From: an uncultured Sphingomonas sp.
Lineage (GTDB): Bacteria; Pseudomonadota; Alphaproteobacteria; Sphingomonadales; Sphingomonadaceae
Assembly (NCBI RefSeq): GCF_902806265.1
Contig: NZ_CADCVZ010000002.1
Location: 1 to 64,000, forward strand
DNA length: 64,000 nt
Direction: 5' to 3'
This document shows positions 2-3,999 of this stretch, one piece after another (the stretch's first letter is position 1; each line of letters opens with the position of its first letter). The notes below the pieces were generated by a model. It searched no databases and was not told the origin of the DNA. It was given only the letters and a program-made list of their open reading frames with translations. The position numbers were made by a program, and so were the translations under genes.

Positions 2-79
2 AGCTGCGTGACCCGCTGGGCGCGTGCCAACGACCTCAACGCCGTGTTCATTAGCTCCATCAAGTTTCCGGAACCCTGA
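2..79 (+). CDS. 3' end of an unidentified gene upstream of carB
   Basis: The window opens inside a reading frame that ends in TGA at 77-79, overlapping the carB ATG by one base. The 25 visible residues end in ...FPEP. The one-base overlap suggests translational coupling with carB. In many proteobacteria carA precedes carB, but this tail does not resemble the usual CarA C-terminus (the HPE region plus a short helical tail), so I do not call it carA. The start lies outside the window. Confidence 0.45.
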
Positions 80-3000
80 TGCCCCGCCGCACCGACATCT
101 CCTCCATCCTCATCATCGGCGCGGGTCCGATCGTCATCGGGCAGGCAGCGGAGTTCGATTACTCGGGCAGCCAGGCGGTCAAGGCGCTGCGCGAGGAGGG
201 CTACCGGGTCATCGTGGTCAACTCCAACCCGGCGACGATTATGACCGACCCCGAGCTGGTGCTTGGCGGGAGCCAAGACGGCGCGACCTATATCGAGCCG
301 ATCACGCCCGAGGCGGTGACGCGGATCATCGAGGCGGAGCGACCGGATGCGCTGCTGCCGACCATGGGCGGGCAGACGGCGCTGAACACGGCGCTGGCGC
401 TCGACAAGGATGGAACGCTGGAGCGGCTCGGGGTGGAGCTGATCGGCGCCAATGCGGCGGCGATCGAGAAGGCGGAGGACCGGCAGAAGTTCCGCGACGC
501 CATGGACCGCATCGGGCTGGAGTCGCCCAAATCCGCTATCGTTCATTCGGTCGAGGAAGCGATGGCGGCGCTCGACACCGTTGGCCTGCCGGCAGTGATC
601 CGCCCGAGCTTCACGCTGGGCGGGACCGGCGGGGGCATCGCCTACAACCGCGACGAATATGCGGCGATCGTCCGGTCGGGCCTCGAAGCCTCACCCACGA
701 CCGAGGTGCTGATCGACGAAAGCGTGGTCGGCTGGAAGGAGTATGAGATGGAGGTGGTCCGCGACCGGGCCGACAATGCGATCATCATCTGCTCGATCGA
801 GAACGTCGACCCGATGGGGGTGCATACGGGGGATTCGATCACCGTCGCCCCGGCGCTGACGCTGACCGACAAGGAATATCAGCGGATGCGCTCGGCCTCC
901 ATCGCGGTGCTGCGCGAAATTGGTGTGGAAACAGGGGGTTCCAACGTCCAGTTCGCAGTCGATCCGAAGACCGGGCGGATGCTGGTGATCGAGATGAACC
1001 CGCGGGTGTCGCGATCCTCGGCGCTGGCGAGCAAGGCGACCGGCTTCCCAATCGCCAAGGTCGCGGCCAAGCTGGCGGTCGGCTACACGCTGGACGAGAT
1101 CGCCAACGACATCACCGGCGGCGCGACCCCGGCCAGCTTCGAGCCGACGATCGACTATGTCGTCACCAAAATCCCGCGCTTCACCTTTGAGAAGTTCAAG
1201 GGCGCGGCGGGGACGCTGTCGACCGCGATGAAGTCGGTGGGCGAGGTGATGGCGATCGGGCGCTCCTTCCCCGAAAGCCTGCAAAAGGCGCTGCGGGGGC
1301 TGGAGACCGGGCTGTCCGGACTCGACCGGGTGCGCGACCTGGAGCTGGCGTCGGACGAGCAGATCGAGGCGGAGTTGAGTGTGCCGACCCCCGACCGGCT
1401 GCTGGTCGCGGCCGAGGCGCTGCGGCATGGTTTCACGGTGGAGCGGATCAACGCCATCGCCGGTTTCGATTCCTGGTTCCTGGAGCGGCTGGCGGAGATC
1501 GTCCGGGCCGAGGGGCAGGTGCGGGCGCTCGGACTGCCGAACGATACGGCCGGGCTCCGGCGCTTGAAGGGGATGGGTTTCTCGGATTGGCGGCTGGCGC
1601 AATTGTCGCTGCGCTCGATCGGCGCGCCGCGCGGCATGAGCGAGGCGGTGGCGGCGAGCGGCGGCGGCATCGTCCATGACGCCATGCGGGCGATGTCGGG
1701 CGGGGTCACCGCTGACGAGGTGCGGCGGCTGCGCGAGCGGCTTGGCGTGCATCCGGTCTACAAGCGGATCGACAGCTGCGCGGCCGAGTTCGACGCGGCG
1801 ACGCCCTATCTCTACTCGACGTACGAGGCGCCGCTGTTCGGCGAGCCGGAGGACGAGGCGGAGGTCAGCGATCGGCGCAAGGTCATCATCCTGGGTGGCG
1901 GTCCGAATCGGATCGGGCAGGGGATCGAGTTCGATTACTGCTGCTGCCACGCTGCCTTCGCGCTGCGCGACGCCGGGCTCGAGACCATCATGGTCAACTG
2001 CAATCCGGAAACGGTGTCAACCGATCCGGACACGTCGGACCGGCTGTATTTCGAGCCGCTGACGGCCGAGGACGTGCTGGAGATCGTGCGGCGGGAGCAG
2101 GCGCGGGGGCAGCTGCTGGGCGTGATCGTTCAGCTGGGCGGGCAGACGCCGCTCAAGCTGGCCGCCGAGCTGCAGGCCGCGGGCGTGCCGATCCTGGGGA
2201 CCTCGCCCGACAGCATCGACCTGGCGGAGGACCGGGAGCGGTTCGCGGCGCTCGTGTCGCGCCTGCGGCTCAAGCAGCCGGAGAACGGCATCGCCCGCAG
2301 CCGCGACGAGGCGCTCACGGTGGCCGAGCGGATCGGCTATCCGGTGCTGCTGCGGCCGTCCTACGTGCTCGGCGGGCGGGCGATGGAGGTGGTCGACGGG
2401 CCCGCGCAGCTCGACAACTATATCGCGACCGCGGTGGCGGTGTCGGGGTCGAGCCCGGTGCTGATCGACCGCTATCTGCGCGACGCGATCGAGGTCGACG
2501 TCGATGCGCTGTGCGACGGCACCGAGGTGGTGGTCGCCGGCGTGCTGGAGCATATCGAGGAGGCGGGGGTTCACTCGGGCGACAGCGCCTGCTCCATTCC
2601 GCCGCACAGCCTCTCGCCCGAGATCGTGGCCGAGATCGAGCGGCAGACGCGCGAACTGGCGCTGGCGCTGAAGGTCCGCGGGCTGATGAACGTGCAGTTC
2701 GCGGTCAAGGATGAGCTGGTATACCTGATCGAGGTCAACCCCCGCGCAAGCCGTACGGTGCCCTTTACCGCCAAGGCGCTCGGGGCACCGATCGCTAAGG
2801 TGGCGGCCAAGCTGATGGTCGGCGGCAAGCTGGCGGAACTCGCCGCACTGCCGGAGATCCGCGGCCACATCGCGGTCAAGGCGCCGGTGTTCCCATTCGC
2901 CCGCTTCCCCGGCACCGACCCGGTGCTTGGACCGGAGATGAAGAGCACCGGCGAAGTCATGGGGATCGCTGGCGATTTCGACGTCGCCTTCGCCAAGTCG

Positions 3001-3438
3001 CAGCTCGGCGCCGGGGTCAGGCTGCCGCAGGGCGGGACGCTGTTCGTGTCGGTCAAGAACAGCGACAAGGAACTGGTCGTGCCCGCAGTGCAGGAGATGA
3101 TCGACCTTGGCTTCTCGGTCATCGCCACCGGCGGGACGTGCGATCATCTGAGAAACTGCGGGCTGCCGGTCGAACGGGTCAACAAGGTGGCGCAGGGCCG
3201 CCCGCACATCGTCGACCGGATCGTCGACGGCGAGGTGGACATCATCTTCAACACCACCGAGGGCTGGCAGTCGCTGAAGGACAGCCAGTCGATCCGGGCC
3301 ACCGCATTGAACCGCAAGGTGCCCTATTTTACAACGGTCGCCGCCAGCCAGGCGGTGGCCCGCGCGATCGGTGCAATGCGGGGGCGCTCGCTTGAAGTCC
3401 GCTCCTTGCAGTCCTATTATTCCGCCCTCGAAAGATAA
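79..3438 (+). CDS. carB: Carbamoyl-phosphate synthase large subunit
   Basis: Makes carbamoyl phosphate from bicarbonate, glutamine-derived ammonia and two ATP for arginine and pyrimidine synthesis. The 1119-residue protein shows the family's internal duplication. Two ATP-grasp halves each begin with a GGGPNRIGQ-like or GAGPIVIGQ-like dinucleotide-loop segment followed by EFDY (residues about 14-30 and 605-625). An oligomerisation region lies between them, and a C-terminal MGS-like allosteric domain starts near residue 975 (segments FSVIATGGT and IFNTTEG). Length is normal. The ATG at 79 is chosen because the protein starts with the conserved [16 protein letters not shown] segment. The small subunit carA is not recognisable in the 79 bases upstream. 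Confidence 0.98.
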
Positions 3439-3525: not shown

Positions 3526-3999
3526 ATGGCGAGCGACAAGGTGCCGATGCTGGCCGAGGGCTATCGCCAGTTGGAGGACGAGCTGAAGCGGCTCAAGTTG
3601 GAGCGGCCGCAGATCGTCGACGCGATCGAGGAAGCGCGTGCCCACGGCGACCTGTCGGAGAATGCCGAATATCATGCCGCCAAGGAGCGCCAGGGCCAAG
3701 TCGAGGCATCGATCGCGGAGATCGAGGACCGGCTGAGCCGCGCGCTGGTGATCGATCCGACGACTTTGAGTGGCGACAAGGTGGTGTTCGGTGCGACCGT
3801 CAGCCTGATCGACGAAGATGAGAAGAAGATTCGCTATCAGTTGGTCGGCCAACAGGAGGCGGACGCCAAGGTCGGCCGGATCAGCTACAATTCGCCGCTC
3901 GGCCGCGCGTTGATCGGCCGGCAGGTCGGCGAGGAGGTGGAAGTGACCACCCCGTCCGGCGATCGCTATTACGAGATCGAAGGCATCGAGTTCGTTTGA
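3526..3999 (+). CDS. greA: Transcription elongation factor GreA
   Basis: GreA enters the secondary channel of RNA polymerase and stimulates cleavage of backtracked RNA. At 157 residues it has the normal length. It carries the N-terminal antiparallel coiled coil (residues about 10-75, including the acidic tip [18 protein letters not shown]) and a C-terminal FKBP-like globular domain ending in ...YEIEGIEFV. An AAAAGGA-type ribosome binding site lies upstream of the ATG. Its stop is one base before the GTG start of the rhomboid gene, so the two are probably co-transcribed. Enrichment of greA next to carB is common in proteobacteria. Confidence 0.97.

Follow-up and report, generated by a model that had tools for sequence, protein, structure and literature searches.

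The first 64,000 nucleotides of contig NZ_CADCVZ010000002.1 of an uncultured Sphingomonas sp. (hereafter the window) open with the last 25 codons of a reading frame that ends on the start of carB, and raise the question of which gene stands before carB in this genome. The original prediction held that these residues do not look like the C terminus of CarA and that a different gene may be inserted between carA and carB in this lineage. We find that the fragment is an unremarkable gene end in itself and that it lies, within a core operon, at a site of recurrent gene swapping where carB stubs occur. Identification of bases 2–79 as the C terminus of a small predicted lipoprotein is, taken by itself, nearly certain on the sequence evidence; together with gene turnover at the carA/carB site, this reading has in our estimate a probability of roughly 80%.

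The gene end before carB

The window starts with the first base of its contig (C2), a true contig end with no sequence upstream of it, in an assembly of 64 contigs and 2.33 Mb. The 3′ end of the predicted lipoprotein gene (25 codons and a stop; positions 2–79, forward strand), assigned by translation, profile match and identity to a relative, is joined to carB by a TGATG stop–start overlap (77–81, forward strand), in which the TGA of the tail (77–79) shares one base with the carB ATG (79–81). carB itself (79–3438, forward strand) is intact and encodes the 1119-amino acid large subunit of carbamoyl-phosphate synthase. An open reading frame lies 3′ of it (3526–3999, forward strand) that we take to be greA, from its sequence and the known carB–greA order; the gap between carB and this greA-like gene is used as a control below.

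The CarA small-chain domain has a single match in the genome, on another contig (C50), in an intact 389-codon reading frame that matches CarA families and ends in SFYLFERFVGMMR before its stop codon. An unusual CarA C terminus, with carA running straight into carB in this lineage, would have a precedent in layout, as carA touches carB in 7 of 50 genomes of the genus; the only CarA of this genome, however, is complete on C50 with its usual ending ERFVGMMR, and the tail matches another family. The complete carA already refutes this reading, whose residual chance is negligible. The tail was also rejected as a CarA end at the level of domains: both the CPSase small-chain and the GATase domains are complete on C50 and have no continuity with it. 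An ordinary CarA bearing the tail was looked for and none was found, and the first part of the original prediction, that the tail is not a CarA C terminus, holds. Separately, the CarA interdomain linker carries insertions in G008, G085 and other genomes, where the match is split or the frame lengthened.

The 25-residue tail is the sole match in the window's genome to the profile of an intergenic protein family of about 90 residues (E = 1.6e-6), and it shares 62.5% identity over 24 residues with the protein at the same place in G008, the genome nearest to the window's in the carB tree. A Pfam scan of the tail gave no match. Given the profile match, the identity to G008 and the family's median dN/dS of 0.36 (27 members, 339 pairs with dS < 3), the tail is more than the end of a chance reading frame; the family as a whole seems to be under purifying selection, as real genes would be. 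The position at contig base 1 could also point to an assembly artefact with no true carB neighbour. We consider this very improbable, because the family lies directly 5′ of carB on one contig in G024, G062, G064 (the complete S. sediminicola chromosome) and others, and is present at the junction in the nearest genomes, G008 and G296.

Of 71 genomes searched in the genus, 31 matched the profile of the lipoprotein family (23 of the 53 of good quality); across the order it matched 9 of 246 genomes and 1 of the 71 genera sampled. Named carriers include Sphingomonas sediminicola, S. daechungensis, S. hankyongi, S. arenae and S. segetis; a metagenome-assembled genome labelled Sphingomicrobium is a further one. 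In all 31 genus genomes that have it, the gene lies beside carA and/or carB (coordinates compared by eye), one flank being hidden by a contig end in some, such as G070, G032, G061 and the window's genome. This constancy of place bears out the second part of the original prediction, that another gene stands between carA and carB.

Of this protein, the window covers no more than the C terminus. Full-length relatives carry, by eye, L-S/A/P-A/G-C near residue 16, which we take to be the lipobox of a signal peptide, as well as two near-invariant cysteines, C34 and C65 in the numbering of the first alignment row, which may form a disulfide. A structural model built from 11 sequences adopts a helix–strand–strand–helix–strand order with a mean pLDDT of 81.8 and block means of 86–96 over residues 21–80; an earlier single-sequence model was poorer (mean 68.0). 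The predicted fold had no match in the PDB at E ≤ 0.001, and Pfam gave no family common to the members, only stray single-member matches (best E = 0.025). The features of the family would fit a role at the cell envelope.

On C50, a second gene, here called X, begins as a GTG that overlaps the carA stop codon (GTGA) and runs for 201 codons to the contig end (L004:5710–6314), which again places a gene other than carB directly after carA. Its GC content is about 0.54, compared with 0.65–0.71 in carA, and residues 3–179 match phrog_13799 (E = 3.2e-15), a phage protein family of unknown function; unlike that family, the close relatives recovered for X are chromosomal and stand between carA and carB. 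No known family was found for X in Pfam, NCBIfam or PADLOC, tblastn against plasmid and phage collections returned no match, and none was found among named genome contigs or in 60 close genomes (0 of 60). A profile built from two rows, X and its homologue in G085, matched five of 396 genomes of the order, strongly in G000, G085 and G242 and weakly in G265 and G280. The three strong matches, from three genera, lie at the carA/carB junction, flanked by both genes in one stretch in G085 and G242; the loci of the two weak matches contain neither carA nor carB. Among 289 genomes of the class, G085 was joined by a single weak match (G568; 27% identity, E = 1.7e-5), with no carA or carB in the examined locus.

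The G085 homologue has 207 residues, so X is probably short by only a few codons, and the unassembled stretch should hold the first 64 or so codons of the lipoprotein gene as well. The ends of C50 and C2 were compared and do not overlap. Since a break in the assembly separates X from the lipoprotein gene, the order carA–X–lipoprotein–carB, including the join of C50 to C2, is put forward as probable.

Gene turnover between carA and carB

Throughout the family, genes are captured and swapped at the carA/carB junction. Inserts are flanked by carA and carB in 140 genomes with sequence. Within the genus, 50 genomes had the two genes on contiguous DNA (out of 55 with loci, from 60 relatives, five of them unfetched); they touch (−1 to 1 bp) in 7 and lie 240–1494 bp apart in 43. 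Across the family, gaps were measured in 131 of 139 genomes, leaving out G000, G034 and six whose carA and carB were split or absent; they run from −1 bp up to 2202 bp, with a median of 394 bp, and 18 are of at most 30 bp, 12 of 31–150 bp and 101 above 150 bp.

For comparison, neighbouring gaps were taken from 40 control loci of about 20 kb, 20 from the genus and 20 from other genera, picked for long contigs and thus non-random. The standard deviation of the carA–carB gap is 336 bp in the genus and 674 bp in the other genera; it is 6 and 16 bp for carB–greA, and 3 and 89 bp for rpoD–dnaG. The dnaG–yqeY gap, three genes away, varies too (296 and 277 bp), so the carA/carB site is not unique, and dnaG–yqeY failed as an invariant control, its gap being bimodal. 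It spans −4 to 860 bp (L179–L218), and a DUF559-like match occurs in 5 of its 19 large gaps.

We then define filled junctions as gaps of at least 140 bp, 125 in number; those from the wider family were chosen for length (60 of 87 further gaps of at least 140 bp fetched) and give no estimate of prevalence. Reading frames of at least 50 codons start exactly on the carA stop in 102 of the 125, compared with at most seven at any other listed offset, and in 65 frames the last base is shared with the carB start. At junctions with gaps of 5 bp or less, carA and carB themselves overlap by one base in 9 of 13.

The cargo is diverse. Of ten cargo proteins scanned with Pfam, four had no match and the others fell to RraB, PIN, a FitA-like antitoxin, DUF559, T5orf172 and an FkbM methyltransferase; none of the ten was an integrase or transposase. 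BLAST clustering of gap frames added several families of unknown function. A PIN/FitA-like pair lies on the reverse strand in seven genomes (G063, G280, G284, G617, G635, G643 and G666), three of which (G063, G284 and G643) also hold a carB stub; a DUF559-like gene, likewise on the reverse strand, occurs in nine. The RraB name comes from G622 (L240), the cluster member that was scanned (PF06877, E = 1e-20). As a side observation, this RraB-family cluster is a common insert between carA and carB, found by BLAST in 24 genomes, 19 of them outside the window's genus.

Close sister genomes differ in their cargo when placed on the carB tree. Mapped on this tree (43 genomes), the lipoprotein gene switches between presence and absence at least seven times: the clade of the window's genome (G000, G008 and G296; SH-aLRT 100) has it, and ten sister genomes, grouped with a support of 82, are without it and hold other cargo or none.

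This pattern could have arisen without capture if the inserts were old and vertically inherited: a single ancestral intergenic gene that diverged quickly, and was lost in some lineages, would look like turnover. An iterated profile does unite 46 gap frames from 42 genomes in one loose superfamily of small secreted proteins, and drew in none of 216 reverse-strand frames; X, too, keeps its position across three genera, as would be expected under common descent. Against this stand the unrelated known families in the cargo (RraB, PIN, FitA-like, DUF559, T5orf172 and FkbM), the differing cargo of close sisters, the carB stubs within inserts, and the distinct GC content and phage-family match of X. 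We therefore regard ancient vertical descent as distinctly improbable, and favour repeated gene gain and exchange at the junction.

carB stubs and a proposed route of insertion

A broken carB start, of about 11 to 43 codons by eye, lies inside 9 of the 125 filled junctions (G643, G284, G063, G019, G134, G131, G664, G183 and G654). Compared with the gaps, the carB N terminus scored 40 or more in 11 of 125 on the forward strand and in none on the reverse strand; codons 31–60 did so in one. Two weak cases among the 11, G635 and G280, were left out of the nine. In G131, G183, G654 and a second site in G643, reading frames begin with CarB-like residues and continue into a stretch resembling a signal peptide.

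The stubs were compared with the carB starts of 140 genomes, ungapped identity being excluded for G284, where there is an indel. The G643 and G131 stubs are closest to the carB of their own genome, which ranks 34th for the stub of G019, 56th for that of G134 and 29th for that of G183, in comparisons of 33–69 nt. The insert of G019 consists of a gene akin to the lone one of G031 (82% DNA identity), a carB stub and a gene akin to that of G080. Over 33 nt the stub shares an identity of 0.91 with the carB start of G031 and of 0.76 with that of G019 itself. Over its first 30 nt, the intact carB of G019 is nearest, among 56 compared, to that of G022, a genome without the second gene, and next nearest to that of G080, which has it. 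This one short comparison, the sole donor test and drawn, as throughout, from one genome per species, hints that recombination within carB brought in the second gene together with a carB 5′ end.

On this basis we propose how the locus may have taken shape. Whole small genes would enter between carA and carB, mostly keeping the start–stop overlaps at their ends, and sister species would end up with different cargo or none. The likeliest route, to which we give about even odds, would be recombination of an incoming foreign gene, carrying a carB 5′ end with it, into the resident carB, an event that would sometimes leave the old carB start behind as a stub. In the window's genome, the last gene of the insert would be the small secreted lipoprotein, with X beside carA in the same insert. 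Because its stop codon overlaps the carB start, the lipoprotein gene is probably expressed from the carAB transcript, with its translation coupled to that of carB. Such coupling would not be universal, since 23 of 125 filled junctions are without an overlapping frame on the carA side, and the PIN/FitA-like and DUF559-like genes are on the reverse strand.

Inserts might also arise with no donor carB: the carB 5′ end would be duplicated locally, and insertion or de novo gene birth would follow. The close resemblance of the G643 and G131 stubs to their own carB, and the continuation of some stubs into signal-peptide-like stretches, would be expected from such a process; the low ranks of the resident carB in G019, G134 and G183, short as those comparisons are, and the members of known families among the inserts speak against it, and we judge it rather unlikely as the general explanation. 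Recombination with an incoming carB 5′ end remains our preferred route. A bolder version, which we hold tentatively and as slightly more credible than local duplication, casts the carB start as a modular landing pad: genes bringing their own carB 5′ end would replace the start, the old one would stay as a stub, and some stubs would be reused as signal peptides. If true, the operon of an essential two-subunit enzyme would be a site of gene capture and gene birth across a bacterial family.

Relation to known junctions

Neisseria gonorrhoeae has a variable carA–carB spacer, and the junction described here likewise holds variable DNA between the two genes; a search of open-licence papers did not retrieve a report of that spacer. 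The same literature yielded no paper on a carA–carB gene-swap site in sphingomonads, which is weak evidence of absence.

That unrelated genes can stand between carA and carB is already published for Pseudomonas and Xanthomonas. In one report (PMC4619228), the order is carA–orf–carB–greA in Pseudomonas aeruginosa and carA–orf–carB–greA–rpfE in Xanthomonas citri, where the 444-bp orf overlaps carA by one base and is co-transcribed; the two orfs are described there as dissimilar. The operons of both species resemble ours in having an extra gene between carA and carB and greA 3′ of carB. They differ, as presented there, in offering one orf per species, whereas the survey of turnover, the lipoprotein family and the carB stubs come from the present analysis. 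In the sphingomonads, gene position supports a carA–orf–carB operon layout, and a single transcript would be consistent with it.

A minimal mobile element, as the concept is used, carries no integrase or transposase. In Neisseria, such elements are defined as whole-gene cassettes that differ from genome to genome between the same pair of conserved genes and that enter the chromosome by homologous recombination (PMC3082526). The carA/carB junction appears to work like such an element, with varied whole-gene cassettes between two conserved genes, and we do not claim membership. In contrast to the Neisseria elements, variation is shown here between species and genera rather than strains, homologous recombination is the route that we infer, and some inserts contain stubs of the flanking gene.

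For annotation, the junction counsels caution: a gene fragment that precedes carB should not be assumed to be carA. For the biology of these bacteria, it points to a core biosynthetic operon in which the two subunit genes remain linked and small genes are gained and lost between them, with carB stubs recording some of the insertions. It thereby offers a case of gene addition inside operons with no evident dedicated mobile element, one that can be tested by strain sequencing in harmless environmental sphingomonads.
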